40,656 bases of DNA. Source: a virus. The notes under the pieces are model-generated. The model saw only the letters and a program-made list of their open reading frames with translations. It was not told the DNA's origin and searched no databases. Each line of letters starts with the position of its first letter. The stretch's first letter is position 1. Positions 9,955 through 23,025 of this stretch are shown here, in pieces. A program made the position numbers and the translations under genes. The DNA lies in IMG/VR virus record IMGVR_UViG_3300032462_000025, positions 1-40,656 of that record, one strand, 5' to 3'.

Positions 9955-10704
9955 ATGAACTTATTGGACAGCTTTAAAGACATTGTAAAACACACAAGCA
10001 GCTTGGGTTTTATAGATATTGTAAAAATCGTAGGAAGTGCTACAGACGCAAAATTGGAAGCAATTGATGCTGAAAAGACCGTTGTAGTATTTGGAAGTAT
10101 GTACCAACCAATCACAGGCATTGATACAACTGTCGGGTTGTCCAGGATTGCAGTGTTGAAGGGTTGTTTAGACTTCCCCGGATTCACTTCTGACAAGTCG
10201 TCACTTGATATAGTGACTGAACTCCGCGGAACTGCAACAGTGCCAACAGAGCTGTTGTTTAAGAGCGGTAGCGGGCACAGTGCTAACTATCGCTTTATGA
10301 GCGAAAGCATGGTAAATGATCAAGTTAAAGTTCCACCATTCAAGGGTGCCACGTGGAATGTAACTATCTCCCCAGAAAAGAAGCGTATTGCAGCTCTTTC
10401 GTACTTCCAGGGTGTATTAGGTGGATTTGAGAAACGTTTTGTCGTAAGTGTGGATGCTGGCACACTTAACTTTCACGTTGGCACGGGTCCGACAGATAGA
10501 ACAACAGTGCCATTCGCAGACAATGTTACAGGTACAATGAAACATCAGTGGTCGTGGCCACTAAGCCAGGTCCTTGGCATTTTGAAGTTGAGCGAAACAG
10601 CATCGACTACAACAATGTATTTCTCAGATATGGGTGCATTAAAGATTGATATTGACTCTGGTCTGGGGAAATACTCCTATATTCTCCCGGCCGGAAAGTC
10701 TTAA
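9955..10704 (+). CDS. 45: Sliding clamp, T4 gp45-like
   Basis: 249 residues, close to T4 gp45 (228). The gp45 topology can be followed: an N-terminal helix LLDSFKDIVKHTSSLG, strands with TVVVFGSMYQPITGI, the helix and strand SRIAVLKGCLDFPGF near 60-75, and repeated alternating hydrophobic strands ending in TTTMYFSDMGALKIDID. The clamp tethers the polymerase to DNA, and in T4 it also couples late transcription to replication. AAGGA lies 7 bases before the ATG. It stands just upstream of the TGT-like gene and about 1 kb after the polymerase, the insertion of the HNH gene apparently having separated them. Clamps diverge fast, so the call leans on context as well. Confidence 0.75.
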   Translation: MNLLDSFKDIVKHTSSLGFIDIVKIVGSATDAKLEAIDAEKTVVVFGSMYQPITGIDTTVGLSRIAVLKGCLDFPGFTSDKSSLDIVTELRGTATVPTELLFKSGSGHSANYRFMSESMVNDQVKVPPFKGATWNVTISPEKKRIAALSYFQGVLGGFEKRFVVSVDAGTLNFHVGTGPTDRTTVPFADNVTGTMKHQWSWPLSQVLGILKLSETASTTTMYFSDMGALKIDIDSGLGKYSYILPAGKS

Positions 10705-10739: not shown

Positions 10740-12341
10740 ATGACAAAAAAGCAAGTTGATTTAGGGGCAAGACAGAAGGCAGGGAATTGGGCTGTATATC
10801 TGCCAGCAATTAGCGGATTCTATACAATTCAATTAGGCAAGATGGATGCAATTCCCGGATATGCAGGCAGACCATTGCCGGCCAAGTTCGAGAATGGGCA
10901 CGAGGGGTTAAACTTTTTGGATCCAGAGAAAGCATATTATTACTATCCCTATGGATTATTTAGTGCTGGGCATGCTCAATTAAAGTTAGATAAAGCTAAT
11001 GCAACTGATCCAATGGTGCAGACTCGTGACAGAAGTACATCTATGATTTTAGGTGACTCTGGCGGATTCCAGATTGCAACAGGTGTGTTGAAATTAGATT
11101 GGGCAACAATTAAGGGCCCAGAGGGTGATGCATTGCGTGAACAGATTTTGCGTTGGCTCGAGTATACAGCAGATTGGAGTATGACACTCGATGTTCCTGC
11201 GTTCGCAGCAGATACAAGATTTGCTAAAAAGACTGGATTGAAAAAGTTCGAGGATACCATTGACATCACGCTCCACAACTTAGAATATTTTGTTAAGAAC
11301 CGTAAGCCAGGTGCAACCAAGTTCTTGAACGTATTATCTGGTAGCACACCAGAGAACTCGAAGGTGTGGTTTGACGAAGTTATTAAGTACAGTATTCCTG
11401 CATGTGTAGAGGCCATGGGTCACAGCCCAGACAGGACGATAGAAGGCTACGCATTCGCCGGTATTAACATGAAGCACATGCCGTCTGTGTTGAATCGTTT
11501 GCTAGACTTGCGTGAGCTTGACGCACTGAAGGACAAGGACTGGATTCACTTCCTGGGCATCGGCAGATTGGACTGGGCATGCTATCTGACATCTATAATG
11601 CGTGAATTAAGAAAACACGATAATCCAAATATTGTTCTATCATTTGACGCGGCTAGTCCGTTTGTTGCAACTGCTTACGGATTAACGTATACTTACAATA
11701 GCTTCAATTCAAAGAGGTTAACATACTCGATGGATAGTGGTATAGATGATAAGAATTTGAAGGGTTCACAGATGGCAATGCCATGGCAAGGTCCAATCAT
11801 GGATAGACTTGTCACTGGCGACATGTGTGTATTGGGCCACGGCGATAAGAATAAGATGAAAAAAGAAGGCAGGACAAGCTGGGATTCGTTTACGTATGCT
11901 TTGTATATGGCGCACAACGTTTACAATCACATTGATGCTGTTCAGGAAATTAATAGATTAGCAGACGTTGAGCATGCCACACGTGATATTAAATATACTG
12001 ATTGGTCAAAGCAGAAAGGCAATTCAATCGCAAATGAAGTTAGTGAGTATGTGCCTAGTTCTATTTTATTCTTCGATGACTTTGTTGAAAAATTATTCGA
12101 CCCTGCCAACCCAGATCCTCGTGGTATGATTAAGGAATATGGAACATATTTGGAAAAAATTAGTTTTGGTGGCACTGGCAGTGAAGTTACTGTGAAGAAT
12201 GTTAGTAATTCGCTATTTGACTGGGATTCGATTAAAGTGACACAGATTGACCAGGACGAACTAGCTGATACTCGTAATGAGAAAAGTGAATTAAAAATGG
12301 TAGATTTGTTTAATTTGTTCAATGAAGAAGACAGTAACTGA
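10740..12341 (+). CDS. dpdA: TGT-like DNA 7-deazaguanine transglycosylase (DpdA family)
   Basis: 533 residues, related to tRNA-guanine transglycosylase. DSGGFQ (106-111) is the TGT substrate-binding motif; EGYAFAGINMKHMP matches the glycine-rich loop; HFLGIGRLDW followed by LSFDAASPF has the expected nucleophile Asp (D303). Phage DpdA proteins exchange guanine in DNA for a 7-deazaguanine, blocking restriction enzymes; QueE and a QueD-like protein in this window support DNA rather than tRNA as substrate. It lacks the Cys-rich zinc site at the usual TGT position. The C-terminus, MVDLFNLF (520-527), resembles a clamp-binding peptide, and the clamp gene is immediately upstream. The exact DpdA subtype is not determined. 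Confidence 0.8.
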   Translation: MTKKQVDLGARQKAGNWAVYLPAISGFYTIQLGKMDAIPGYAGRPLPAKFENGHEGLNFLDPEKAYYYYPYGLFSAGHAQLKLDKANATDPMVQTRDRSTSMILGDSGGFQIATGVLKLDWATIKGPEGDALREQILRWLEYTADWSMTLDVPAFAADTRFAKKTGLKKFEDTIDITLHNLEYFVKNRKPGATKFLNVLSGSTPENSKVWFDEVIKYSIPACVEAMGHSPDRTIEGYAFAGINMKHMPSVLNRLLDLRELDALKDKDWIHFLGIGRLDWACYLTSIMRELRKHDNPNIVLSFDAASPFVATAYGLTYTYNSFNSKRLTYSMDSGIDDKNLKGSQMAMPWQGPIMDRLVTGDMCVLGHGDKNKMKKEGRTSWDSFTYALYMAHNVYNHIDAVQEINRLADVEHATRDIKYTDWSKQKGNSIANEVSEYVPSSILFFDDFVEKLFDPANPDPRGMIKEYGTYLEKISFGGTGSEVTVKNVSNSLFDWDSIKVTQIDQDELADTRNEKSELKMVDLFNLFNEEDSN

Positions 12342-12543
12342 AGCTTCTATAAAGCTGGAAAGCCTACTTAAAATCCAAAGGGATTGTTGTAGTCCCCGGG
12401 ATAGCAGTTATGAGTATATGTATGGTATGTTAAATGGTATGATTTTATCTCATGCTGTTATGAACGATATAGAACCAAAATATGCAATGTCTGAGAGAAG
12501 AAGGAAAGCAAAAAATAACATAAGGCACAAAGGGAATAGATGA
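12322..12543 (+). CDS. Small phage protein, unknown
   Basis: 73 residues, overlapping the end of dpdA by 20 bases and the next gene by 4. An N-terminal helix ESLLKIQRDCC is followed by YEYMYGMLNGMILSHAVMND, a short helix pair seen in small phage proteins, and a basic tail (RRRKAKNNIRHKG). No membrane segment and no recognised fold. It has no clear Shine-Dalgarno sequence and may be translated by coupling to dpdA. Confidence 0.55.
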   Translation: MKKTVTEASIKLESLLKIQRDCCSPRDSSYEYMYGMLNGMILSHAVMNDIEPKYAMSERRRKAKNNIRHKGNR

Positions 12544-13370
12544 TACACAATTTATGTATATATCACGGCAACTGCGCAGACGGCTTTACATCTGCGTGGG
12601 TAGTAAGACAGGCATTAGGAGCATATACCGAGTTTCATGCTGGGTTCTTTAATAGTCCGACGCCGGAAGTTAAGGGCATGGATGTATATATTGTAGACTT
12701 TAGTTATCCAAGAGCCGTAATGGAGCAGATTGTTACTAGTGCAAACAAAGTAGTTCACATTGACCACCACGAAACTGCTATAAATGCTATGCAGGATTTT
12801 ACTGCGCCTAATTTATTAAAAGTATACAGTTACGAAAATACGGAAAGTGGCGCAATGCTCACTTGGAAGCATTTCTATCCAGAGAAAGATGTACCACAAC
12901 TAATTAAGCATGTAGATGACCGGGATCGCTGGAAATTCCTAATCCCGGGAACAAGAGAGTTTCAGGCTAATATGTTCAGCTATGAATATACATTCGAGAA
13001 TTGGGACATGTTGCTCTCTCAAGATGTGCAGGCCCAGATTCGGGACGGCGCAGCTATAGAAAGAAAAGACAGGCGCGATATCAAATTGTTGTCCTCTCTA
13101 GTTGTTCGCAGAATGAATATAGCAGGATTCAATGTGCCTGTTGCAAATGTATCGCCCTTTATGGGATCTGAGATGTGCAACAGATTGGCCAGGAATGAAC
13201 CATTCTCGGCGTATTATTACGATACACCAGACGGGCGTATGTTTGGACTACGCTCGTTGCAAGGCACCGTAAATGTTGCAAAAATTGCAGAATCTTACGG
13301 TGGTGGCGGGCATGAAAATGCATCGGGATTCCGAATGTCCTATGAAGATGCAAAAAAATTCGAAATATAA
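12540..13370 (+). CDS. DHH-family phosphoesterase
   Basis: 276 residues. HGNCADGFTSAW (9-20) carries the first metal-binding Asp, VYIVDFSYPR (D53) the second and VVHIDHHETA (DHH at 75-77) the family signature; a later HVDDRDRW supplies another acidic cluster. The C-terminal DHHA1-type end is YGGGGHENASGF, the substrate-binding GGGH. Members are Mn-dependent and cut short RNAs (nanoRNases), cyclic dinucleotides or pAp. The substrate here cannot be told; a role against cyclic-dinucleotide defence signals, beside Acb1, is possible but inferred. Overlaps both neighbours by one to four bases. Confidence 0.9.
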   Translation: MIHNLCIYHGNCADGFTSAWVVRQALGAYTEFHAGFFNSPTPEVKGMDVYIVDFSYPRAVMEQIVTSANKVVHIDHHETAINAMQDFTAPNLLKVYSYENTESGAMLTWKHFYPEKDVPQLIKHVDDRDRWKFLIPGTREFQANMFSYEYTFENWDMLLSQDVQAQIRDGAAIERKDRRDIKLLSSLVVRRMNIAGFNVPVANVSPFMGSEMCNRLARNEPFSAYYYDTPDGRMFGLRSLQGTVNVAKIAESYGGGGHENASGFRMSYEDAKKFEI

Positions 13371-13792
13371 TGACTAAGAAATATTCTGTAAATAAAAAGA
13401 TGCCGTCGAGGATGTTTCTTAAATCCATTGTCGGGGGCGGCAACACATCGATTACCTGCAACTGTGGAAGAACACATTATGCACCTCAGGCATTCGATTA
13501 TAGTAACGATACAGATAATTACGAAATTGCATTGGCAGAATGTCTATTAGAACACGATAAGGATCCGGACGGCGTCATAATAAATTATGAGGATGATTTT
13601 GTGTATTACAAAGAATTGGGTGGCCAACAATTTGTCGAAGATTGTCCATGTAACGGATTAAGACGGTACGAGGATTTTATTTGGGGAAATAGAAATTCAA
13701 TTCGCGAATACTATAAAGTTAGAGTAGAACAAGAGGCATGCTGGGCCGAGCAAGAGGTGGTCCTTAACAAATTAGCAGGAATACAAAAATGA
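13370..13792 (+). CDS. Putative zinc-binding phage protein
   Basis: 140 residues. VGGGNTSITCNCGRTHYAP (about 22-40) provides Cys-x-Cys and a His, and FVEDCPCNG near residue 88 another Cys pair, together a likely Cys3-4/His zinc site. The rest is acidic and helical (EYYKVRVEQEACWAEQEVV). I recognise this as a family shared by phages but know no function. It begins at the A of the preceding TAATGA overlap and ends over the next ATG, so it belongs to the 12322-16525 operon. Confidence 0.65.
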   Translation: MTKKYSVNKKMPSRMFLKSIVGGGNTSITCNCGRTHYAPQAFDYSNDTDNYEIALAECLLEHDKDPDGVIINYEDDFVYYKELGGQQFVEDCPCNGLRRYEDFIWGNRNSIREYYKVRVEQEACWAEQEVVLNKLAGIQK

Positions 13793-14073
13793 CTAAAAAA
13801 TTATATATGGTCGAGACACTTACAACATTTGTCCACAGGTATGCGGTCGAGGCCGAAAGCCTCGACCATGCCTACGATGAAGTAACAATGATGGACTCAG
13901 GATCGGACTCAGATTACTTTGAACCTATTATTTCGATGGCAGTAGTAACCGATATGGTCGTTGATGGTCGAGAAATTGATATGGACGAATTCAATAGAAT
14001 GCAAAAAGACAAAAATGCTAACTCACCGTGGATGGGAGAAAGACTAATACGGAGAATTAAGTATGTCAGCTGA
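13789..14073 (+). CDS. Small acidic phage protein, unknown
   Basis: 94 residues. An N-terminal strand-helix unit (FVHRYAVEAESLDHAYDEVT) is typical of many T4-like and cyanophage hypothetical proteins in which the helix holds an AE(S/D)xxHAxDEV pattern. The end (NANSPWMGERLIRRIKYV) is basic. No catalytic motif. Overlaps its neighbours by 4 and 11 bases. Confidence 0.65.
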   Translation: MTKKLYMVETLTTFVHRYAVEAESLDHAYDEVTMMDSGSDSDYFEPIISMAVVTDMVVDGREIDMDEFNRMQKDKNANSPWMGERLIRRIKYVS

Positions 14074-14515
14074 TTACCTGTTCGAGTCACAATATCCAGG
14101 CGGCACATATTCATCGTTGATTCCGTCGGTGGAGAGCAGAGAGGAATTATATGCATTTTTAGCAGGACTGGATATTCCAAATCTGGAGGATCCGGATGAA
14201 TATCATTGCACACTTATTTACTCAAAGAAAGAATGTCCCGATGTTGTAAAGGAAGATTTTGCATTACCATCCAGGGCAATTGCAACCGAATATAAAATTC
14301 TTGGAACAGACACAAAAGTTCTTGTTCTAGAAATTTATTGCCCTAATGCTGTGAGACTCCACGAACTCTTTATGAGGAAATACGGAGCCACGCATGACTA
14401 CGACGAATATATTCCACACATCACTATTGCAAAAGATTTCAAAGGTAAGATGCCTACAGAAATTCCAGAATTAGAAATAATCTTCAATGGGCAAACAGTA
14501 GAGGAACTAAGCTAA
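14063..14515 (+). CDS. acb1: Acb1-type anti-CBASS phosphodiesterase
   Basis: 150 residues, 2H-phosphoesterase fold. The two catalytic HxT motifs are HCT (48-50, in DEYHCTLIYSK) and HIT (119-121, in YDEYIPHITIAKDF). GGTYSSLIPS near the start and the C-terminal FNGQTVEELS correspond to the start and end of T4 Acb1 (gp57B, about 150 residues). T4 Acb1 hydrolyses the cyclic oligonucleotide signals of CBASS immunity, preventing abortive death of the host. All four catalytic residues are kept, so it should be active; which cyclic nucleotides it cuts is unknown. Start overlaps the previous gene by 11 bases. Confidence 0.85.
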   Translation: MSADYLFESQYPGGTYSSLIPSVESREELYAFLAGLDIPNLEDPDEYHCTLIYSKKECPDVVKEDFALPSRAIATEYKILGTDTKVLVLEIYCPNAVRLHELFMRKYGATHDYDEYIPHITIAKDFKGKMPTEIPELEIIFNGQTVEELS

Positions 14516-14763
14516 TGGCTAAGGAAGGAATACAACATAAGGACTTATTGGGGAATGAAATTACCGATGCTTCTAAATTAGCAGTATCCTGGAAGAATTC
14601 TTTATACATATGTTCCATTATAAAAATTCATCCAAAGATGATGCGATGTAAACCCCTTGTCAGAAGTACATGGATGGCCGATGGCATTCTTGTCTACCCA
14701 AATCAATGCGTAGTAGTTGATGGACCAGATGTCATGGCATATGTATTAAGGGGTGGGGCATGA
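14515..14763 (+). CDS. Small SH3-like phage protein
   Basis: 82 residues with a beta-rich pattern: DLLGNEITDASKLAVSWKN, then SLYICSIIKIHPKMMRCKPL and a C-terminal VDGPDVMAYVLRGG helix. It resembles the protein at 30349 in the order of elements (D.L...., gap, Y.v..i.K, and a final helix before the end), so the two may be distant paralogues. Function unknown; it is translated by overlap with acb1 and with the next gene. Confidence 0.6.
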   Translation: MAKEGIQHKDLLGNEITDASKLAVSWKNSLYICSIIKIHPKMMRCKPLVRSTWMADGILVYPNQCVVVDGPDVMAYVLRGGA

Positions 14764-15617
14764 AAGCATTATTAGCAGGTTACGGAGGAATTGGATCGAG
14801 TGTGTATTATCCAGAGTTAAAAGGTCTCGGGCATGATGTAGACATATACGATACTTTTGCACCAGAAGGGAAGAAAGTTCCAAAAATTAAAAAAGCATAT
14901 GACTTAGCAGTTATATGCACACCCAATTTCACACATGAAACCATCGCAAGAACACTTGCTGAAACGGGAACAAAAGAAATCTTCATTGAGAAGCCCGGAG
15001 TATCATCTGTTGCAAGTTGGAGTAAAATGTGCGATGACTTTCCAGATACAAATTTTCACCTTGTAAAAAATAATCTGTTCAGAGATAGTTACGGCAACAT
15101 AGTAGAAATGGTCAAGCGTAAAGATTTAATGGGCGTAGATATTACCTGGTATAGTAATAACAGGATCCCGAACCCAGGCAGTTGGTTTACAACACGGGAC
15201 AAATCATTCGGTGGAGTAGAATATGATCTGATGCCACATTTATATTGCTTTGCACTGATTATGTTTGGAGAGGACAAACTGGTATGGTCAGAATTCAGCC
15301 AACACGCATATAGACGCTGGGATTTAAAGAATATCCAAACCACATCATATGGGAAAGTCGATCCTAACGGTATATACGATGTGAACGACGTAGCAACTGC
15401 ACATGCAAGAATTGGAAGAATCTCACTAAAGATGTCTGCATCATGGAAAGAAGGATATGATAAACAATCGGTTACTCTGTTTTTCAAAGATGGCATGACA
15501 TACGAGTGGAACTTCGGATTATGTCCGGCTAATGCATATGGGAAAATGCTTCAATGCCAGTCTGACTCGAGATTTATAGATACAGAGATTCACAACTTCT
15601 TGGAAGGATTCGAATGA
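14760..15617 (+). CDS. Gfo/Idh/MocA-family NAD(P) oxidoreductase
   Basis: 285 residues. GYGGIGSS (8-15) is the Rossmann dinucleotide loop, AVICTPNFTHETIA the second strand and helix, and FIEKPGVSS the EKP signature of the Gfo/Idh/MocA family, whose Lys is catalytic. These enzymes oxidise or reduce sugars and cyclitols, often nucleotide-activated. The C-terminal half (FGGVEYDLMPHLYCF, then long beta strands) fits the family's substrate sheet, and the Asp/His region DLMPH matches the DxxxH active site. It overlaps the dehydrogenase that follows by 4 bases; the pair and the glycosyltransferase at 17409 probably share a sugar pathway (inference). Confidence 0.85.
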   Translation: MKALLAGYGGIGSSVYYPELKGLGHDVDIYDTFAPEGKKVPKIKKAYDLAVICTPNFTHETIARTLAETGTKEIFIEKPGVSSVASWSKMCDDFPDTNFHLVKNNLFRDSYGNIVEMVKRKDLMGVDITWYSNNRIPNPGSWFTTRDKSFGGVEYDLMPHLYCFALIMFGEDKLVWSEFSQHAYRRWDLKNIQTTSYGKVDPNGIYDVNDVATAHARIGRISLKMSASWKEGYDKQSVTLFFKDGMTYEWNFGLCPANAYGKMLQCQSDSRFIDTEIHNFLEGFE

Positions 15618-16525
15618 TTACACGAATGTTTTATACAAACGGCAAGCACGATATTGTAGAAGGCGAGTGGGACAAGCCTGAAATCACCGACGATGAAATC
15701 GAAGTAAAGGCTGTGTTGACAGGCGTATGCCGATCTGACGTAGATATGTTTGCAGGTCAGTTCCAGTTATTACCGAGAAATATTCAGGGACACGAAGGGC
15801 TGGGCGTAGTATCCAAAGCTGGCAAAAATATTAAGGGTGTAAAGGAGGGCGATATTGTTGCTACTAGAGGTGAGCCAGCATTCTCTGATTTTTATAATGC
15901 AAAAGATAAAACCTTTGTTAAAGTACCGGAGATAAATCCTAAATACATTATAGAACCCGTTGCATGTGGAGTCAATATATCTAAATCACTTTTCATACCA
16001 GAGTCCGGCACAGTCCTAATTTTGGGAACAGGATTCTTGTCTACTGTTGTTTATAGAATGCTAAGGATGATTAATCCTGAAGTCAGCAAATATGTTGTTG
16101 TCGGAAATGCTAATAAGGAATTCTGGCTAAAAGAGAAATGTGTGGAGTTGACAGACATAACAGGATTACGTAATAGGCAATTTAAGTACATAGTTGATTT
16201 ATCAGATAAACCTGAGTATCTATCATTGAACATCTACGCTGAACGTGCTATAATAGTTTTAGCAGCAGAAAAATATCCCGAGGCAAAGTTGTCATTCGGA
16301 CAATTCCTGTGGAAGGCTGTTAATATGGTTTTCCCCAGTCCGAGGAATGCAAGTTTTCATGATTCTATGAAGACTTCGGTACAGTTAATATCGGATGGGT
16401 ATTTAAATGTTGACAAGTTATGGACTAAGCCTTATGACAGAGAAACAGAAGTGCTAACAGCATTCAGAGACGGACTAGCAAAACCAGATGGATATTCCAG
16501 AGGATATATAGAATGGCGAAAATGA
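15614..16525 (+). CDS. Zinc-type alcohol/polyol dehydrogenase-like protein (MDR)
   Basis: 303 residues of the medium-chain dehydrogenase family. The catalytic zinc set is visible: GVCRSDVDMF (Cys near 38), GHEGLGVV (His and Glu near 60) and IEPVACGVNI (Glu near 115). The four-Cys structural-zinc lobe is absent, replaced by a short linker, which explains a length below the usual 340-370. The nucleotide loop is VLILGTGFLSTVV. The substrate is probably a sugar or polyol. It is co-translated with the Gfo/Idh gene upstream, and a homing endonuclease gene faces its 3' end 4 bases further on. Confidence 0.85.
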   Translation: MITRMFYTNGKHDIVEGEWDKPEITDDEIEVKAVLTGVCRSDVDMFAGQFQLLPRNIQGHEGLGVVSKAGKNIKGVKEGDIVATRGEPAFSDFYNAKDKTFVKVPEINPKYIIEPVACGVNISKSLFIPESGTVLILGTGFLSTVVYRMLRMINPEVSKYVVVGNANKEFWLKEKCVELTDITGLRNRQFKYIVDLSDKPEYLSLNIYAERAIIVLAAEKYPEAKLSFGQFLWKAVNMVFPSPRNASFHDSMKTSVQLISDGYLNVDKLWTKPYDRETEVLTAFRDGLAKPDGYSRGYIEWRK

Positions 16526-16529
16526 GAAT

Positions 16530-17351
16530 TTATACAGAGTTATAATCCTCGTATAATTCTTTTAAAGTTTTATCACATTTTACATTCTTTTTAGAATTAT
16601 CTATATGCCATAACATTCTAAGATTTGTCCAATGGCCTATAATCTTAGCAGGAACATTATTTTTAAAACCAGCGTCAACGGAATAAATATGATCTAGGCT
16701 GTATTTATACCGTGCTCTTTGCAAATTGTGTGGATTTATTTTATAAAAATGAGTGTGATAGTTTGTCGTAGTTATAGACTTAACATCGCGTCTATAATTT
16801 TCTAAATCAGCAATTTTATTTCGAGAAATCCAATCTCCCGTTAATTCTCTGCTCATTCTAATCTTGGAGATTACGCTGTGGTCTTTAGATACATTTTTTA
16901 CACCATATTTTTTCATTATTGAATTTTCTAATTTTATTTTAATTTTATCAGATTTCATCGGATGAGAAACACCAAACTTAGTAATACATGTGAGTTCTAC
17001 CGAACTTCGAAAATCCTGTGATTGTGATGCAAAGTCAGTTCCGTATCGTAATTTACTTGTTTCTATTGTTTTGGATTTATAATCCGGATTATTATTCCTG
17101 CATGTACCAGAACAATTCTTGCTATATCCGTATCGTAGTCCTAAAAATTTTAACGGCTTTTCTTTACAAACGGGGCACAGTATAGTATAATAAGAATCTA
17201 AGTAAATTGCATGATACGCTTGTTGGAATAATGACCATTTTTCTGGATATTCTAAATCTAAATTAATAATATAATTTTTTATAATAGTGTTTAAATCAGT
17301 TATTTTTCCTGGATATGATTTGATAATATTTTTAATTTCAGTATTTGTCAT
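16530..17351 (-). CDS. HNH-type homing endonuclease with zinc-finger and repeat module
   Basis: 273 residues. The N-terminal third has a CPVCK...C..C pattern (about 59-84), likely a zinc finger, followed by TKFGVSHPMKSDKIKIKLEN and MKKYGVKNVSKDHSVISKI, two copies of a (K/R)(F/Y)GVxxxxK module shared with the endonuclease at 35974. The C-terminus, YSLDHIYSVDAGF followed by HWTNLRMLWHIDN and NVKCDK, has the D-H, N-L-R and N-K residues of an HNH-type nuclease. It sits in reverse between the dehydrogenase and glycosyltransferase genes, probably a mobile intruder in one operon. Late promoter at 17377-17384. Confidence 0.8.
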   Translation of the reverse strand: MTNTEIKNIIKSYPGKITDLNTIIKNYIINLDLEYPEKWSLFQQAYHAIYLDSYYTILCPVCKEKPLKFLGLRYGYSKNCSGTCRNNNPDYKSKTIETSKLRYGTDFASQSQDFRSSVELTCITKFGVSHPMKSDKIKIKLENSIMKKYGVKNVSKDHSVISKIRMSRELTGDWISRNKIADLENYRRDVKSITTTNYHTHFYKINPHNLQRARYKYSLDHIYSVDAGFKNNVPAKIIGHWTNLRMLWHIDNSKKNVKCDKTLKELYEDYNSV

Positions 17352-17367
17352 GTTTAGTATGCAGTTT

Positions 17368-17384
17368 TATAAATAATATTTATA
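17368..17384. promoter_or_regulatory. Divergent pair of late promoters TATAAATA
   Basis: TATAAATA on the plus strand (17368-17375) and on the minus strand (17384-17377), one base apart. The plus box would start RNA near 17381 for the glycosyltransferase, the minus box near 17371 for the endonuclease. Both are exact T4 consensus. Confidence 0.6.
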
Positions 17385-17408
17385 CATTATGGGACGGAGG
17401 TACCTAGT

Positions 17409-18488
17409 TTGCGAAATATAATTATCTTTTCATTGGAGCCGTTAGAATCGAGATATACGTGTGAATGGCATACATATCTTCCAAAATTATTAAAGGACGC
17501 GGCGGGGGATGAATTTAATATAATACAAATAGATGGCGATACAAATAGTGGAACGCCGACGCACGGTGCATTTCTGGATTTCCTATCTACGAATCAATGG
17601 AAGAACGAACAGGCAAATAAATTCTTTAACTTAGTTAAAGATGGAATAATATTAAAGGGTGATAGAATATTATTTACCGACTTTTGGAATCCCACTATAT
17701 TAGAAATAAAATATGTAAATGATCTTATGTCTATGGACTGGGAGTTACATGCATTTGTTCATGCCGGGTCATATGACAGCCAGGACTTTTTAGGCAGGCT
17801 AATAAAGGACAAAAATTGGACTTATTCCACTGAACGTGCATTATTCCATGCAATTGATCACAATTGGTTTGCAACACAGTACCATGTAGATTTATTTGTT
17901 AAATCTATAGTAGGTCACGAAAATTACTTTAAACATGCATCGACTGGGAAAATTAGTCTGACTGGTTGGCCGATGGATTATCTCCCGGATACTTTATCTA
18001 AGTATGATATTTCACAGAAAGAAGATATCATTATATTTCCACACAGGATTGCACCAGAAAAGCAACCAGAAATATTCAGAGACCTAGCAACGTCTATGCC
18101 ACAATATAAATTTGTTGTGTGCCAAGATGATAAATTATCTAAACAAGAATATCATAAATTACTTGCTAAGTCTAAAGTAGTATGGTCTGCTAACTTACAA
18201 GAAACTTTAGGTATTAGTCCATTCGAAGGTGCATTAATGGGTGCGATACCGTTATTACCCTTCAGGTTAAGCTATTTCGAAATGTATGAACCGATTTTTC
18301 TCTACCCAACAGAATGGACAGAATCATTCGAGAATTACTTAGAAAATAAAGAAGATATTATGTACAAGATTGAATATCTGATGAAAAATTATGAAGAAAT
18401 AAGGGCGTCGGTTGACAATTTAGCAGATCATTTATTAGAGAAATATTTTACAGCCACAGAGCTAATTAACAAATTATTAAGGAAATAG
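17409..18488 (+). CDS. GT-B glycosyltransferase, TTG start
   Basis: 359 residues. Two Rossmann-like halves: the N-terminal one begins IIIFSLEPLESRYTCEWH, the C-terminal one begins DIIIFPHRIAPEKQPEIF (about 205) and contains NLQETLGISPFEGALMGAIP (about 265-284), the E...G...E.AL.GAIP pattern of nucleotide-sugar binding in GT1/GT4-like enzymes. It transfers a sugar to an unknown acceptor: modified DNA base, host envelope or phage protein. TTG 17409 is chosen because a strong GGAGG (17396-17400) lies 8 bases before it. The gene downstream starts within 2 bases of its stop, so they are co-expressed. Confidence 0.85.
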   Translation: MRNIIIFSLEPLESRYTCEWHTYLPKLLKDAAGDEFNIIQIDGDTNSGTPTHGAFLDFLSTNQWKNEQANKFFNLVKDGIILKGDRILFTDFWNPTILEIKYVNDLMSMDWELHAFVHAGSYDSQDFLGRLIKDKNWTYSTERALFHAIDHNWFATQYHVDLFVKSIVGHENYFKHASTGKISLTGWPMDYLPDTLSKYDISQKEDIIIFPHRIAPEKQPEIFRDLATSMPQYKFVVCQDDKLSKQEYHKLLAKSKVVWSANLQETLGISPFEGALMGAIPLLPFRLSYFEMYEPIFLYPTEWTESFENYLENKEDIMYKIEYLMKNYEEIRASVDNLADHLLEKYFTATELINKLLRK

Positions 18489-18489
18489 T

Positions 18490-19371
18490 ATGGATACATT
18501 CGTAAGAAAGGGACACGAGAGCGTAAAGTTTTTCGTAGGTCCGGAAATTGAGCAAACCCCAGCATTTTGTAAGAAGACATTGTTTGTAGTGGGGTTGCAG
18601 GACATTGCTGAAATTGAAACATTAGCGAGAGAACATAAGACGCCACATATTTTCCTCAGTGCAAATCGTTCATTCGATTCTGTAGAAATGAAAGGTGGTG
18701 TGTATGTTGTTGGCGACACACTTGCATCGGACTGGGCTGCCCAAATTCATGCATTGCTAGACATGGGATTTATGGTATCACTGGATTACCCTGCGCACAA
18801 ACACGTATACGTATTGCAAATTCTGAGTCCAGCTATTTGGCAATCTAGAAACTTTGTACCAGTACTTAGCGTTGCTATTCCATGCGTAAGCACATCTAGC
18901 ATTAACTTAACTGTTAAAATTGATGACTCGAATTTCGGAGAAACTAATCCAGGCGTGTGGTGCATGAACCACACCGAAGTTACAGATAGTAACCGATTCA
19001 CAGCATGGAGTGAGTATGGCGACGATGTAGTTATCGATACAACTACATCCTATGCCGAGGTCAACAAGCCACCAGTCAACTTAGCTGCCGCGAAAAAGGT
19101 GGTTGAAGAAATCAGGGAACCATTAGTAATTTCTGCAGATGTTAAGGAAGAAGGAATACCGGAAATTGTAAAACACTTTGAAGATGCAGAATTGAATCCA
19201 CAGGCAATAGGGATCGATACGGAATCAAAATCCAAACTAAAACCAGACCCAATTGAGGAAGCAGAACAAGCTAAAAAAACAGAAGTTGCAGCAACAGACG
19301 CATTGAGTGCATATACCCAAACTAAAGTCGAGGTTAAAGAGCCAGCTAAGAAGAAGGTAGTTAAGAAATGA
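18490..19371 (+). CDS. Conserved phage protein with charged C-terminal tail, unknown
   Basis: 293 residues. The first 190 form a folded-looking domain with HIFLSANRSFDS, MGFMVSLDYPAHKHV, IWQSRNFVPVLSVAIP and NPGVWCMNHTEVTDSNRFT; I associate this set with T4-like cyanophage proteins of unknown role. Residues about 200-293 are low-complexity, Lys/Glu/Ala-rich, ending in EPAKKKVVKK, probably disordered and able to bind nucleic acid. Placed between the glycosyltransferase and the QueD-like gene, overlapping the latter by 4 bases. Confidence 0.7.
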   Translation: MDTFVRKGHESVKFFVGPEIEQTPAFCKKTLFVVGLQDIAEIETLAREHKTPHIFLSANRSFDSVEMKGGVYVVGDTLASDWAAQIHALLDMGFMVSLDYPAHKHVYVLQILSPAIWQSRNFVPVLSVAIPCVSTSSINLTVKIDDSNFGETNPGVWCMNHTEVTDSNRFTAWSEYGDDVVIDTTTSYAEVNKPPVNLAAAKKVVEEIREPLVISADVKEEGIPEIVKHFEDAELNPQAIGIDTESKSKLKPDPIEEAEQAKKTEVAATDALSAYTQTKVEVKEPAKKKVVKK

Positions 19372-19727
19372 TAACAAAGACATTTATAAAAGTTAGAACA
19401 GAATTTGAAGGTTTTCATTTCTACCCAGGTGCAGCATCGATCGACGAGAAAATCAGATTTTTAGAAAATGAACATAGGCACATCTTTAAAGTGGGTGTAA
19501 AAATATCAGTGACCCACTTAGATCGGGAATTAGAATTTTTCCTAGTGAAGTGGGCATTGCAAGACTTTATTAAAGTCGGCAAAATGAATCATAAGAGTTG
19601 CGAAATGATATCTATGGATATTTTACAAAATCACCTAATTCCAAAATATGGTTCGAATAGATACTATGAAGTTATTGTGTCGGAAGACGGGGAATCAGAT
19701 GGTATAATAGAATTTATACCTGAATAA
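19368..19727 (+). CDS. QueD/PTPS-superfamily-like protein
   Basis: 119 residues following the 6-pyruvoyl-tetrahydropterin synthase layout: FEGFH (His 17), EHRHIF (His 36 and 38, in place of HGH), DRELEFFLVK as the strand-helix after it, SCEMISMDIL (78-87, in place of the (P)T.E...) and VIVSEDGE (103-109) as the final strand with acidic residue. The three zinc-ligand His are kept. The catalytic Cys before HxH is missing (LENEHRH), so activity as QueD is uncertain. QueD supplies the substrate of QueE's pathway (carboxy-tetrahydropterin), which fits queE and dpdA here. It could instead be a non-enzymatic relative. Confidence 0.6.
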   Translation: MITKTFIKVRTEFEGFHFYPGAASIDEKIRFLENEHRHIFKVGVKISVTHLDRELEFFLVKWALQDFIKVGKMNHKSCEMISMDILQNHLIPKYGSNRYYEVIVSEDGESDGIIEFIPE

Positions 19728-19910
19728 AGTTTATGTATTGTAATAGAACATTTATTATGCTTCTGTAATTTAGTGGTTCGGGCAGCATTTGTCCAGAATC
19801 GACATTTACAATCAGAATTTAACATTATCTCCCCATCATCGTGTATTTACCAATTGATTACATATCTAAAAAGTGTGATGGGCGCATCATTTCAGTCGAA
19901 GACGGAGAAA

Positions 19911-20138
19911 ATGGAGCTACCCTTACCTACACGCCCACCTGAGTTTGATAAGAAATATAAAATCATCATTAAACACAAACATACACTCGAATACCATAAA
20001 ATGCTCGAGTGGGTAGATAATAATAGTAATGGTGCAGTCGAAGTAAAACTTGGCGGCGAGTTAGTAATAACTGATGCATATTTTGCATTCGAAGACCCGG
20101 ATGATGCATTAGTTTTTAGGATTAAGTATGAAATATAA
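19911..20138 (+). CDS. Small phage protein with FxDxDDAxxFxI ending
   Basis: 75 residues if started at ATG 19911, which follows GGAG (19904-19907); a longer frame from GTG 19773 lacks a ribosome site. The end, YFAFEDPDDALVFRIKYE, resembles that of the protein at 23022 (WYFQDIADAMVFKIMW), and both have a Lys/His-rich first half, so they are probably paralogues. Function unknown. Overlaps the next gene by 11 bases. The 180 bases before it hold no other gene I can support. Confidence 0.55.
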   Translation: MELPLPTRPPEFDKKYKIIIKHKHTLEYHKMLEWVDNNSNGAVEVKLGGELVITDAYFAFEDPDDALVFRIKYEI

Positions 20139-20370
20139 CAAAGGGTTGTTTAACAATTCTACACAGAATTGGATCGAACAGTTTAATGGTCTGAGTATGC
20201 AAATTCCTGTAATGGATTTACACGAACACGTACGGGAACTAGAGGAAAAGGTAAAGGTGTTAGAAATGCAACAGGCTGCATTACTAGAATACCCCGCATT
20301 ATCTGAAGCTTACAAAGAATATAAACTAGTTGAAAAACTTGTATTAGGAGATAAAAATGGCAATAAATAA
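20128..20370 (+). CDS. Small coiled-coil phage protein
   Basis: 80 residues. From about 32 to 60 (HVRELEEKVKVLEMQQAALL) it forms heptads with Leu/Val at a and d positions, a short coiled coil. The N-terminus (TQNWIEQFNGLSMQIPVMD) may be a binding patch. No enzyme motif. Overlaps the genes on both sides. Confidence 0.6.
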   Translation: MKYNKGLFNNSTQNWIEQFNGLSMQIPVMDLHEHVRELEEKVKVLEMQQAALLEYPALSEAYKEYKLVEKLVLGDKNGNK

Positions 20371-20836
20371 TCCTAAATGGGCAACAATCGGGCCGATGCC
20401 TGCACAAAGCACAGTGACATTACCAGACGTAACGTCTGGTACAATTGGCATATCGAGTGCAGTTACGGCAGCTAATGGCGCCTGGTCGTCAAATTCTGGC
20501 GGACCAGCACATTGGGTTAGCGCGCCGCCTCCGACAAATATCATAACAATATATGACAGAGATGAAAAGCCTTGCGTGACATTAGAATTAGATGGTTCTG
20601 TTACCTGGGAAGATCCTACTAAAATAGATGAAGCTGCAGAAATGTTTAGCAAGACATTGACAATGTCAGCTGAAATAAAGAGTGGAATTACGAATGGTGT
20701 AAAGACAAAAATCAGAAATACAATATTCGAAGAAATCATACAAATAGCACAAAGGAAGGGATCTGTAACTGTTGACGACTTGACTTATATGTATGAATCA
20801 GCTAAAATAATGGATAAATTACAAGGGTCGATGTGA
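20357..20836 (+). CDS. Conserved phage protein, unknown
   Basis: 159 residues with AGGAG (20345-20349) before the ATG. The Gly/Ser/Pro-rich first 60 residues are followed by IITIYDRDEKPCVTLELDGS and TWEDPTKIDEAAEMFSKTL, then two helices KTKIRNTIFEEIIQIAQRKG and DDLTYMYESAKIMDKLQGS. The beta-hairpin plus helices layout is common in T4-like and related phages. No function known. Confidence 0.65.
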   Translation: MAINNPKWATIGPMPAQSTVTLPDVTSGTIGISSAVTAANGAWSSNSGGPAHWVSAPPPTNIITIYDRDEKPCVTLELDGSVTWEDPTKIDEAAEMFSKTLTMSAEIKSGITNGVKTKIRNTIFEEIIQIAQRKGSVTVDDLTYMYESAKIMDKLQGSM

Positions 20837-21027
20837 CATTATCAATACAAGAACTAAAGCAGATAGCAGAATCTTTAAAAGAATGCGATCCCGATGTCGA
20901 GTATTTTTCATTTGCCCCGTCACTGGAATACGCCAGAAGGCGGAAAGATGCAGCACTCAAATTATTAAAAAAAGAAATAAAGGAATTACAAAATGTTCGG
21001 GACGCTAACTATAATAACCCACAGTGA
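20833..21027 (+). CDS. Small helical phage protein, GTG start
   Basis: 64 residues, opening with GTG at 20833 that overlaps the previous TGA. Mostly one helix pair, IQELKQIAESLKECD and RRRKDAALKLLKKEIKELQN, strongly basic in the second half. Unknown function; reality rests on overlap and codon pattern. Confidence 0.5.
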   Translation: MTLSIQELKQIAESLKECDPDVEYFSFAPSLEYARRRKDAALKLLKKEIKELQNVRDANYNNPQ

Positions 21028-21084
21028 GTTCGTTTTTTGTGTTTAAGGTATGTGTAAAAATTATGAGAATACTTACGACAATTG

Positions 21085-21112
21085 TTGCTTAGTGTTTGTT
21101 ATGTGTTATATT
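21085..21112 (+). promoter_or_regulatory. Possible promoter before queE
   Basis: TTGCTT (21085-21090), 16-bp spacer, TATATT (21107-21112) in an AT-rich 145-base gap. Moderate match; it would give a leader of about 55 bases that includes the palindrome at 21130. Confidence 0.4.
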
Positions 21113-21129
21113 ATTAAAAAATGCTTTAT

Positions 21130-21149
21130 ACATAGATATTTATCTATGT
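21130..21149. promoter_or_regulatory. 20-bp palindrome ahead of queE
   Basis: ACATAGATATTTATCTATGT: two perfect 9-bp arms round TT, 22 bases before the queE start and just before its GGAG site. It could be an operator for a dimeric repressor or an RNA hairpin. No T-run follows, so it is not a terminator. Confidence 0.55.
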
Positions 21150-21171
21150 TTGGCACAAATGGAGAATTAAA

Positions 21172-23025
21172 TTGTTTGGAACTAATAAAATTATCGGTCA
21201 AAAATATTTCAAAGAGGCACCTGCGGACAGTCTCTTTGTAACAAGTATGTTCTTCACTTTGCAGGGCGAAGGGCCGTACGCCGGAATGCCTGCACTCTTC
21301 ATCCGTTTAACTAAATGTAATCTCGCATGTTCATTTTGTTTTGTACCATCGACACTTATAACAATGGGGGACAGCACTAAAAAACGTATAGACCAAGTTC
21401 GAATCGGTGATTCAGTTATGTCTTGGTCTGGTGATAAATTCGAGCCTAAAAATGTAACAAAGACATATAAATCCATTGCAGAAAATATTGTAAAGGTTTC
21501 TACTAATAGCTCACCTGTATGGTGTACACCAGAACATCCATTTTTAACATCGAATCGTGGATGGGTAAATGCAGAAAATTTATTACCAGGCGATAAGTTA
21601 GTCCATTGGGGAAATAAAGAACATAAAACACATTTTAATCCAATGTTTATTGAGAGTAACAGAGGAACAATGAGTGATGGAGAAAAAGATAAAGCAGCAA
21701 CGCGGTTGTCCAATCTTTGGAAAGATGATGATTTTAGGACTGCAAACATATCAAGAATGAAGGAGCACAATCCTATGTTTAATCCTGCAACCGCTCTTAA
21801 AGGATTCTTAACAAGAGTATCACAGATAAAATCTGGATTAGAAATAAAAATAGAAAATATTTGTAAAGATTTACCGATCACTTTCGTTGGAAATGGAGAT
21901 TTAGTTATTTCGTATAAAGTTCCAGATTTTCTCGTAAATGGTCAAAAGAAAGTTATAGAAGTTTGGGCCGATGATGCTTTATGGGTTAAAAAATCACCAA
22001 GAGGTAAAGAATGGATGGAAAAACGCAAGGCCATTTTTGCAAAAGAGGGATATGATACATTATTCCTCCCTCTTATCCAGGCAGAATTAAGAATGGACGA
22101 ACAATATAAAATTAGAGAAAAAGTAGCTGCATTTATTAATAATGGCAGAGTTGTGAAGTCTGTAGAATTTGTTAAAGATGGGAGAGGTTGGGCGAGACTA
22201 TATGGAACTAAATCTGCTGACAGAGAAGTTTATAATTTAGAAGTAGAAGACAATCATACATATCTTACTAATAATTGTGTAGTTCATAATTGTGATACTT
22301 TTTTCGATGACGGCGACTGGATGACATTCGAGGAAGTTGCTATTAAGGCTACAAATACAATTAGAAAATATTGGTTGGACCGTGATTTAGAAGTGCCCGA
22401 GTGGGTCGAATCAAAATCCAGACACTCCATTGGATCATTCCCGAAAGTAGTATTAGTAGTGACAGGCGGGGAACCACTATTGCAAAAAAATCTGATGGAC
22501 TTTTTCAATTATGGTAAACATAGAATAGATGGAGCTTTATTCGGTGAAATGCAAATTGAAAGTAATGGCACAGTTAATCAAAGTGTTCCAGAGTTTGTAA
22601 CATTGGTATGCAGTCCTAAATGTTCCGAGAAGAATGGCATTGCAACAAAATATCTTTCACCGACTGAGCTAATTCTCAAACGTGCAGATTGCCTAAAATT
22701 TGTAATGAGTTCAGATAAAGATAGTCCATATAACACAGTGCCACAGTGGGCACATGATTGGAGTAAACAAACAGGTAAATCTGTATATTGCAGTCCAATG
22801 AATATTTACAATACGTTCCCACAGAAGATTAAACTGTTGCATGCAGAAAAGGGTAACATTACGATGGATCAACGTTCTACAGTGGTGGAGGTTATTAGTT
22901 TTTGGGAACCAGACCTTCTTGACTTAGATGCCAATCAAAAAAATCACGAATATACTGCGAGGTATTGCATGGATCACGGATTTAAACTTAACTTGCAAAT
23001 GCACTTATATGCCAGCCTTGCATGA
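21172..23025 (+). CDS. queE: 7-carboxy-7-deazaguanine synthase QueE, interrupted by an intein
   Basis: QueE is the radical-SAM enzyme that makes the 7-deazaguanine ring from carboxy-tetrahydropterin. The extein gives 299 residues: FFTLQGEGPYAGMPALFIRL at the start, then the cluster motif C-NLA-C-SF-C (CxxxCxxC), later TGGEPLLQ (SAM-binding), and CLKFVMSS near the end. A 318-residue intein lies exactly before the third cluster Cys; after splicing the sequence reads NLACSF-CDTFF. Start is TTG 21172 with GGAG 7 bases upstream, confirmed by the QueE-like N-terminus. Together with dpdA it points to a 7-deazaguanine in phage DNA. No queC was seen, so 7-carboxy-7-deazaguanine could be the final base. 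Confidence 0.92.
   Translation: MFGTNKIIGQKYFKEAPADSLFVTSMFFTLQGEGPYAGMPALFIRLTKCNLACSFCFVPSTLITMGDSTKKRIDQVRIGDSVMSWSGDKFEPKNVTKTYKSIAENIVKVSTNSSPVWCTPEHPFLTSNRGWVNAENLLPGDKLVHWGNKEHKTHFNPMFIESNRGTMSDGEKDKAATRLSNLWKDDDFRTANISRMKEHNPMFNPATALKGFLTRVSQIKSGLEIKIENICKDLPITFVGNGDLVISYKVPDFLVNGQKKVIEVWADDALWVKKSPRGKEWMEKRKAIFAKEGYDTLFLPLIQAELRMDEQYKIREKVAAFINNGRVVKSVEFVKDGRGWARLYGTKSADREVYNLEVEDNHTYLTNNCVVHNCDTFFDDGDWMTFEEVAIKATNTIRKYWLDRDLEVPEWVESKSRHSIGSFPKVVLVVTGGEPLLQKNLMDFFNYGKHRIDGALFGEMQIESNGTVNQSVPEFVTLVCSPKCSEKNGIATKYLSPTELILKRADCLKFVMSSDKDSPYNTVPQWAHDWSKQTGKSVYCSPMNIYNTFPQKIKLLHAEKGNITMDQRSTVVEVISFWEPDLLDLDANQKNHEYTARYCMDHGFKLNLQMHLYASLA
21337..22290 (+). mobile_element. Intein with Vsr/PD-(D/E)XK-like nuclease domain
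   Basis: 318 residues within QueE. Splicing blocks: Cys1 in CFVPSTLI (block A), TPEH in CTPEHPFLT (block B), VYNLEVEDNHTYL (block F) and CVVHN followed by extein Cys (block G: penultimate His, terminal Asn, Cys+1). The middle lacks LAGLIDADG motifs; instead ISYKVPDFLVNGQKKVIEVW followed by KRKAIFAKEGYDTLFLPLIQAEL has the D...E-x-W and GY...L pattern of Vsr/EDxHD-type homing nucleases. All splicing residues are present, so it should splice. The nuclease lets it spread into intein-free queE genes. Confidence 0.88.

Follow-up and report, generated by a model that had tools for sequence, protein, structure and literature searches.

Within IMG/VR virus record IMGVR_UViG_3300032462_000025, whose 40,656 bases are the window analysed here, a divergent DpdA-like transglycosylase, a T-fold protein and the 7-carboxy-7-deazaguanine (CDG) synthase QueE are encoded together with a GT4-type glycosyltransferase. 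This gene set very likely swaps guanine in the phage DNA for a modified base, to which the glycosyltransferase may afterwards add a sugar. The best explanation overall, to which we give a probability of about one half, is a DpdA module that operates without QueC and leads to a glycosylated 7-deazaguanine in DNA. DpdA-based DNA modification is a known kind of system; the key element added here is a glycosyltransferase tied to DpdA. The first-pass annotation had recognized dpdA, queE and a QueD-like gene within 12 kb as a DpdA-type 7-deazaguanine set. All three genes are present there on the plus strand and the set as such is supported, to which we add an intein, the glycosyltransferase (positions 17409–18488), two oxidoreductases (14760–16525) and a conserved gene (18490–19371). 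Gene identities, folds, intein and linkage are established by sequence or predicted structure.

The DpdA-like transglycosylase

The product of 10740–12341 (plus strand) has 533 residues and contains DSGGFQ and LSFDAASPF, the motifs that had marked it as similar to tRNA-guanine transglycosylases (TGTs). At E ≤ 0.1 it matches no family in Pfam, PHROGs or NCBIfam, no TGT family is among the family matches of its 54-row alignment, and a 9-row profile retrieved nothing meaningful from PDB sequences. Because the family libraries do not see the protein, its assignment to the TGTs rests on predicted structure and motifs. The AlphaFold2 (AF2) model built from the 54-row alignment has a predicted local distance difference test (pLDDT) score of 88.6. 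The first 27 rows of a Foldseek comparison with the PDB are all TGT-family proteins (E from 1.3e-5), as are all 50 rows listed by VIA, in which the model superimposes on the TGT of T. maritima with a Z score of 18.8 and a root mean square deviation (rmsd) of 4.5 over 303 residues. D106 of DSGGFQ and D303 of SFDAASPF, which we take from TGT to be the catalytic residues, are invariant in the 54 aligned rows, and the motif patterns are found in 148 of 153 open reading frames (ORFs) longer than 440 residues (not dereplicated).

A grouping with the tRNA-acting TGTs, which would speak against a DpdA, was not seen. PF01702 has no match at E ≤ 1 in any of 8 records while all 14 controls are positive, and the zinc motif CxCxxC of tRNA-TGTs (CDCYTC in E. 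coli Tgt) is absent from all 153 ORFs. Among predicted viral structures, the eighth-ranked match of the model (E 2.3e-9) is a 464-residue protein of Vibrio phage nt-1, and the nt-1 gene of this length is the one named DpdA2 (YP_008125322); ranks 1–7 are unnamed or uncharacterised proteins, except for a tRNA guanine transglycosylase of Achromobacter phage Motura at rank 6. According to passages of PMC6884629, nt-1 DNA bears the 7-deazaguanines dPreQ0, dADG and dG+. The likeness to DpdA2 comprises the TGT fold, DSGG, an Asp motif of the SYD/GYD kind, the lack of CxCxxC and a location beside FolE and a PTPS-like gene. By contrast, nt-1 has a full QueC and neither the T-fold gene nor the glycosyltransferase, and the DpdA profiles have no significant connection. 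The comparison with TGT and DpdA families proposed at first pass separates the protein from PF01702 but yields no profile link to the characterised DpdAs, as hhalign finds none to those of CAjan, 9g, Dp-1 or nt-1 (P 0.14 for nt-1). Local hhalign matches were obtained to gp123 of Acidovorax phage ACP17 (P 9e-6) and to the DpdA-like protein of Cellulophaga phage phiST (P 6.5e-5). On the basis of the modelled fold and the motifs, we take the 10740 protein as a new DpdA subfamily, and its target is very likely DNA.

A glycosyltransferase linked to DpdA

The gene at 17409–18488 (plus strand) encodes a 359-residue glycosyltransferase of GT4 type and GT-B fold. Its AF2 model (pLDDT 91.8) has BshA (3mbo) as its top Foldseek match (E 1.3e-9), with GT4 enzymes leading the matches, and superimposes on 3mbo in VIA with a Z score of 24.0 and an rmsd of 3.0 over 305 residues. 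The EX7E motif is formed by E265 and E273, both of which are present in 45/45 members. PF00534 is matched at E ≤ 1 by 25 of these 45 (best E 4e-4), and by the window protein at E 0.18 (11.8 bits, cut-off 26.4). Profiles of the glycosyltransferase and of the conserved module protein X (see below) found only noise among PDB sequences. The motif FPHRxxPEKQP is possibly reminiscent of GTDC1/QTMAN; no QTMAN entry is among the structure matches listed, which speaks neither for nor against such a likeness.

Linkage was followed in three scans, each confined to the best 80 loci of at least 583, at least 590 or at least 567 matching stretches, and in a census of 117 dereplicated loci (from 172). The grouping of DpdA, glycosyltransferase, T-fold protein and QueE is not due to chance, and the gene orders are similar. 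All 56 glycosyltransferase-seeded viral loci with at least 5.6 kb upstream contain DpdA (39/39 after dereplication); 24 of the 80 loci, with less upstream sequence, were set aside, 11 of which show DpdA. Conversely, DpdA-seeded loci with at least 6 kb downstream contain a glycosyltransferase in 46 of 47 cases; in 27 the enzyme belongs to this subfamily, and in 19 to a divergent one whose profile is related at P 8e-21 (33 of 80 loci, with less than 6 kb, set aside). T-fold-seeded loci have DpdA in 76/80 and the glycosyltransferase in 58/80. These 80 include 44 with window-type DpdA and glycosyltransferase, 10 with ACP17-type DpdA and glycosyltransferase, and 4 with a glycosyltransferase and no DpdA found. 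A window-type DpdA without glycosyltransferase is seen in 3 and an ACP17-type DpdA without it in 1, the T-fold gene lying near the right end of the DNA in these four.

The census loci were fetched by DpdA or the glycosyltransferase, so the counts for these two are favoured: DpdA is found in 105 of the 117 and the glycosyltransferase in 98. The set is accompanied by the structural gene upstream (100), DNA polymerase (98), protein X and the T-fold protein (93 each), QueE, the furthest from the seeds (73), FolE (64), phosphoribosyltransferase (61), a cysteine-dioxygenase-like protein (41), HIT (28), SDR epimerase (26), the alcohol-dehydrogenase-like (ADH) and GFO/IDH oxidoreductases (23 each), a UDP-glucose/GDP-mannose-dehydrogenase-like protein (18) and DegT aminotransferase (16). 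The names of FolE, of the phosphoribosyltransferase and of all the families after it in this series are each taken from one representative. The phosphoribosyltransferase (L118:2691-3200 and relatives; PF00156, 43.8 bits) is a candidate for salvaging the guanine that DpdA sets free.

Judged by protein similarity and gene order, the window is a piece of a phage akin to PA5oct and Paride, jumbo phages of Pseudomonas (287 kb; Arenbergviridae, Wroclawvirus). Its 12.3-kb region has no megablast match in 50,697 phage records. The order common to all three is structural gene, DpdA, glycosyltransferase, T-fold protein and QueE, and the DpdA of PA5oct and Paride is 49.5% identical to that of the window. 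In these two phages, however, DpdA and glycosyltransferase genes directly adjoin, with no GFO/ADH or homing-endonuclease genes between, and QueE is of the other cysteine-spacing type and has no intein. The syntenic anchor is the conserved gene directly upstream of dpdA (9955–10704, plus strand), a homolog of PA5oct gp170, which is annotated as a structural protein from electrospray ionization tandem mass spectrometry (ESI-MS/MS).

The set recurs in other phage lineages. ACP17 has QueD, FolE, X, a DpdA-like gene, glycosyltransferase, T-fold protein and QueE within 6 kb, in a complete genome with no match to the QueC family PF06508; it shares the set and its neighbours with the window, but its DpdA is of another type and its glycosyltransferase is 35% identical. 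Xanthomonas phage X1 has in a row the glycosyltransferase, a gene annotated as queuine tRNA-ribosyltransferase, the T-fold protein and QueE. In BUCT-ZZ01, QueE, xanthine-guanine phosphoribosyltransferase, QueD, FolE, a DpdA-like gene and the T-fold gene are accompanied by a distant glycosyltransferase (E 5e-16). In these three phages the DpdA-like protein that accompanies the glycosyltransferase is of another type, marked by DSGGLQ and SYDSTTHT. A second GT4-like candidate lies directly upstream of the BUCT-ZZ01 DpdA-like gene (L217:5364-6707). In Sinorhizobium phage Phosso, T-fold and glycosyltransferase genes adjoin, with FolE and QueE nearby and DpdA elsewhere. The T-fold gene of phiST is near FolE, QueE and QueD, without a PF06508 match; its short DpdA-like protein has DNGAGDHD and there is no glycosyltransferase. 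A distant glycosyltransferase homolog in Xanthomonas phage PhiXhv-15 (L229:4750-7984), whose neighbours are annotated as L-glutamine-D-fructose-6-phosphate aminotransferase and GlcNAc-malate deacetylase, perhaps belongs to another base-glycosylation cluster.

A scan of a genome collection with the glycosyltransferase gave 10 loci, and all but one of them, a contig of 4.6 kb, contain DpdA. Among these nine, three metagenome-assembled contigs have the phage-type set, and six are bacterial loci from the alphaproteobacteria Devosia, Azospirillum, Methylobacterium, a Rhizobiales, Pelagibacterium and Aurantimonas. All six have DpdA, the EX7E motif and a YhhQ-like gene adjoining the glycosyltransferase or the T-fold gene, which itself is present in two. 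The one YhhQ-like protein scanned reaches 26.3 bits with PF02592 (cut-off 27.2), a family that presumably includes YhhQ, and the other five match by BLAST. As YhhQ is a preQ0 transporter (passages of PMC6884629), the glycosyltransferase accompanies 7-deazaguanine genes even outside phages. These loci (L243-L248) are possibly an undescribed bacterial 7-deazaguanine island.

Genes of sugar type accompany the glycosyltransferase. In the window, a GFO/IDH/MocA-type NAD-binding oxidoreductase (14760–15617, plus strand; PF01408 32.5 bits, cut-off 24) overlaps the gene of the ADH-like oxidoreductase (15614–16525, plus strand), in which the N-terminal domain is matched (PF08240 40.8 bits, cut-off 23.5); both are candidate sugar-tailoring enzymes. 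In other loci an SDR epimerase lies within 60 nt of the glycosyltransferase gene (16 of the 26 loci having SDR), as do DegT (13/16) and the dehydrogenase-like gene (5/18). Exchangeable genes of this type at one spot look like a sugar-tailoring step. Between the ADH and glycosyltransferase genes, a free-standing homing-endonuclease-like gene on the minus strand (16530–17351; phrog_3339 E 2.7e-12, PF24308 46 bits) is a mobile passenger, for which there is no room in L001 and L002, the closest relatives of the window by DpdA, because the two flanking genes overlap there. Protein X (18490–19371, plus strand) has no Pfam, PHROG or NCBIfam match, and its homolog adjoins the DpdA-like gene of ACP17.

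The T-fold protein, QueE and the QueC step

The 119-residue protein encoded at 19368–19727 (plus strand; phrog_17812), of the PTPS/T-fold kind, was labelled QueD-like at first pass. Its similarity to E. coli QueD (4ntm) is weak (E 0.29), with the histidines aligned. In hhalign, the T-fold set and 18 phage QueDs give a partial C-terminal match (local P 6.8e-5, global 0.0019), and comparison with two QueDs was unsuccessful. Residues H17, H36, H38 and E106 are kept in 33/33 relatives, the histidines presumably serving as zinc ligands. The Cys and Asp-His of QueD, which we assume to be catalytic, are invariant in four aligned QueDs, and both patterns occur in all 18 phage QueDs; in the 33 T-fold relatives, by contrast, no Cys is found in the 12 residues before H36 and a DH dipeptide occurs in two. 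PF01242 does not match the window protein and matches 2 of the 33 weakly (best E 0.084). At other places in the records, a true QueD exceeds the cut-off in 17 of 20, and PA5oct has two PTPS genes near FolE. Since the Cys and Asp-His are missing and the relatives encode a true QueD elsewhere, the QueD label is not supported, and the protein is probably not the QueD of the pathway. A possible likeness of 'FLENEHRH' to the PTPS-III ExxHGH motif was dropped, the upstream Glu not being conserved in the alignment. The window protein shares 74% identity with those at L059:9246-9602 and L105:9198-9566 but only about 40% with its L001 and L002 counterparts; the latter loci being closest by DpdA, this points to gene replacement by recombination.

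The search for folE, queD and queC proposed at first pass found none of them in the window, as may be the case in a fragment. In relatives it found FolE and QueD, and no strong QueC match (of the 8 records examined first, most of them short, 3 have FolE and 3 have PTPS matches). PF06508 has no match in the window or in the complete PA5oct and Paride genomes, in agreement with the absence of a visible queC noted earlier; the set probably works without it. Among named phages, the T-fold gene is present in 12/12 chosen for it and in 0/4 QueC phages, and strong QueC matches (E 6e-54 or better) are confined to the latter four. Ten of the 12 T-fold phages have no QueC match at E ≤ 1, and X1 has one of 16.2 bits. 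This mutual exclusion of T-fold gene and strong QueC among the named phages suggests that the QueC step is where the T-fold protein acts, and it is fairly probable that the modified base is not made by QueC. A CDG decarboxylase, DpdL, was reportedly predicted by Cui and colleagues in 2023, and the T-fold protein might be this enzyme.

A PP-loop protein (PF01171) of PA5oct and Paride was considered as a stand-in for QueC and set aside, as it is far from the cluster and in none of the other six records searched. This PP-loop ATPase (E 2e-37; L021, 277 kb in PA5oct, and L022, 149 kb in Paride) might serve to amidate a carboxylated base. It is perhaps the gene reported as TilS in the related phage MIJ3 (passages of PMC6892783). 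In X1, a PAPS-reductase-type PP-loop protein (PF01507) beside FolE (L187:5338-5871) could be the QueC stand-in of that phage.

QueE, as named at first pass, is real: the 617-residue product of 21172–23025 (plus strand) matches phrog_2076 at E 3.4e-41, the match being split in two by an in-frame intein, and the NCBIfam QueE models match it in pieces, below their cut-offs (56.6 versus 260.1 bits). The intein comprises 318 residues, C56 to N373 (21337–22290), and is matched by PF14890 (39.8 bits, cut-off 35.8) and TIGR01443 (24.4 bits, cut-off 15.6). The hallmarks are all present, namely an N-terminal Cys (C56), TPEH, a terminal HN and a Cys at position +1 (C374). The intein sits immediately ahead of the third Cys in the radical SAM motif CxxxCxxC, and the spliced protein reads CNLACSF^C. 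As the motif of the cluster cysteines is interrupted, QueE activity should depend on protein splicing. The site is empty in L001 and holds a related intein in L002, and inteins were found in 2 of 109 QueE ORFs in the loci examined. By motif pattern, the GCDS type with long spacing accounts for 101 of these ORFs and plain CxxxCxxC for 5; the other 3 have a different form, and the window and L002 are among them because the intein splits the motif. No report of a QueE with an intein was found in the literature searched.

Together with this intein, homing-endonuclease-type genes at 8895–9713, 16530–17351, 35974–37515 and 40015–40656 (phrog_655, phrog_3339, PF24308, phrog_1314) constitute a heavy load of mobile elements within 40 kb. 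The module also contains a gene for an Acb1-type anti-CBASS protein (14063–14515; PF23474 63.6 bits, cut-off 27), which has no BLAST match in twelve compared loci, including L001 and L002. A phage-type DHH phosphoesterase (12540–13370; phrog_4771 E 9e-90) is present also in L002 and partially in L001, and an RtcB RNA ligase is encoded at 30589–31782 (PF01139, 431 bits).

Proposed pathway and rival explanations

In the proposed pathway, FolE and QueD, from other loci of the phage, as in the relatives, or from the host, would feed QueE, which would yield CDG with an iron-sulphur motif that is complete only after splicing. The T-fold protein would replace QueC on CDG, or assist that step, and the divergent DpdA would put the resulting base in place of guanine in the phage DNA. 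A sugar would then be attached to the inserted base by the GT4 glycosyltransferase together with variable sugar-tailoring enzymes (GFO/IDH and ADH in the window), and the bulky hypermodified guanine would shield the DNA from nucleases. At first pass the final base was expected to be CDG or, with a queC, a nitrile or amine form. This is incomplete: because the glycosyltransferase belongs to the set, the final base does not have to be free CDG or one of the other two forms. What points from the glycosyltransferase to sugar transfer on a DNA base is its linkage, and we regard glycosylation of the inserted base as an evenly balanced proposition. A wider reading, in which phages and bacteria share a widespread pathway to glycosylated 7-deazaguanine in DNA, with DpdA exchange, a dedicated GT4 enzyme and interchangeable tailoring enzymes, is tentative and falls slightly short of even odds. 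Such a pathway would mirror, in DNA, the glycosylated queuosine of tRNA, and a bacterial form with a precursor transporter, located on the chromosome, would belong to it. On this reading the sugar might even be C-linked, should the base first be decarboxylated by the T-fold protein.

In DNA glucosylation of the T4 type, the sugar is put on the DNA base after replication; the acceptor there is hydroxymethylcytosine, in contrast to the 7-deazaguanine proposed here. Glycosylated 7-deazaguanine in DNA is not mentioned in the titles and abstract openings of the literature searched, though the glycosyltransferase link may have been noticed earlier. Deazaguanine in place of guanine has already been predicted for some jumbo phages, in passages of a review (PMC13282480) in which 'glycosyl' has 0 occurrences. 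The passages of the relevant literature hold no statement on restriction resistance of PA5oct-type DNA.

Several observations weigh against a QueC-free pathway to a glycosylated base. The T-fold loci with phiST- or D479-type DpdA have the glycosyltransferase in 0 of 18 cases (4 with 5.6 kb on both sides), and it is present in 6 of the 12 named T-fold phages (0/4 QueC phages) and missing from the other 6, so that the core set does not include the sugar. Locus L068 has DpdA with neither glycosyltransferase nor T-fold gene. The GFO/ADH pair occurs in 23 of 117 loci, which means that the sugar genes vary, and by pattern the bacterial DpdAs have DSGG in 5/6 and the nucleophile motif in 2/6. Decarboxylation of CDG by the T-fold protein would leave plain 7-deazaguanine, which has no obvious hydroxyl for an O-linked sugar. 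PA5oct has a gene of the thymidylate synthase family. Weak QueC-like matches exist in 4 of 15 uncultivated records and, at E ≤ 1, in 5 of 20 records, in each case over the cut-off in 2; one of these two is record G010, in which a 241-residue frame matches both ends of the QueC model with 28.7 bits together. The matches in the uncultivated records may represent divergent QueC or different enzymes of the PP-loop kind. Among the 12 T-fold phages, D479 matches part of the QueC model with 32.8 bits. The G010 frame (L192 and L196, 275.4–276.0 kb) is in a record of jumbo size that also has DpdA, glycosyltransferase and T-fold genes (L112).

As the T-fold/DpdA core occurs without the glycosyltransferase, an unsugared base is quite possible, if on the unlikely side: DpdA would insert CDG, or 7-deazaguanine after decarboxylation by the T-fold protein, and the glycosyltransferase would act elsewhere, on a surface glycan or another base. 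The phages phiST and MA9V-3, which have the T-fold protein and a DpdA-like protein without this glycosyltransferase, and the 18 T-fold-seeded contigs fit this explanation, and dCDG and dDG are said, by Cui and colleagues in 2023, to be known phage bases. It is less easily reconciled with the near-complete linkage of the glycosyltransferase to window-type DpdA, with its presence in 10 of 11 T-fold loci with ACP17-type DpdA, and with its location beside a YhhQ-like gene in bacteria.

It is rather improbable that queC is outsourced, the host enzyme converting CDG and DpdA inserting preQ0 or preQ1 with host help. Hosts such as Pseudomonas make queuosine, and the YhhQ-like gene at 6/6 bacterial loci suggests salvage of a preQ0-type base there; T-fold phages, however, keep FolE, QueD and QueE and have no strong QueC, and QueC phages lack the T-fold gene. 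The explanations are not all exclusive, since a host-made base could still be glycosylated, and this one is compatible with a later sugar step.

A role in tRNA, with transglycosylase and glycosyltransferase producing a phage form of glycosylated queuosine (mannosyl-Q, galactosyl-Q), would agree with the TGT fold, with the glycosylation of queuosine by GT4-type enzymes in animals and with the possible likeness of FPHRxxPEKQP to GTDC1/QTMAN. The missing zinc motif (153/153) and the structural kinship to nt-1 DpdA2 make it very doubtful, and both the lack of PF01702 matches (0/8 records) and the position of the module, between a DNA polymerase gene before it and an exonuclease gene after it, argue against it. 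Least probable of all is glycosylation of 5-hydroxymethyl-cytosine or -uracil independently of DpdA, as in T4: hydroxymethyl bases are the classical substrates of phage DNA glycosyltransferases, PF00303, which we take to be the family of the dCMP/dUMP hydroxymethylases, occurs in 9 of 18 records, including PA5oct, Paride and Phosso, and PhiXhv-15, where PF00303 is present, has its distant glycosyltransferase homolog with glucosamine-6-phosphate synthase-like and deacetylase genes, but PF00303 was not found in the complete, glycosyltransferase-bearing genomes of ACP17, X1 and BUCT-ZZ01, which lowers this role, and PA5oct gp233 matches thymidylate synthase PHROGs.

If a glycosylated 7-deazaguanine is indeed made, guanine would join cytosine and thymine as a sugar-coated base of phages, by base exchange and not through a hydroxymethyl handle. 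For jumbo phages that lack a nucleus, Callisto and MIJ3 among them, it would point to one means of shielding their DNA. The combination of T-fold protein and glycosyltransferase would be a marker from which DNA chemistry could be predicted for several hundred viral contigs (at least 567 to at least 590 stretches per scan), and the bacterial island would be added as a candidate for self-marking. The finding also raises the testable question of which enzyme takes over from QueC when a phage pathway seems to end at CDG.

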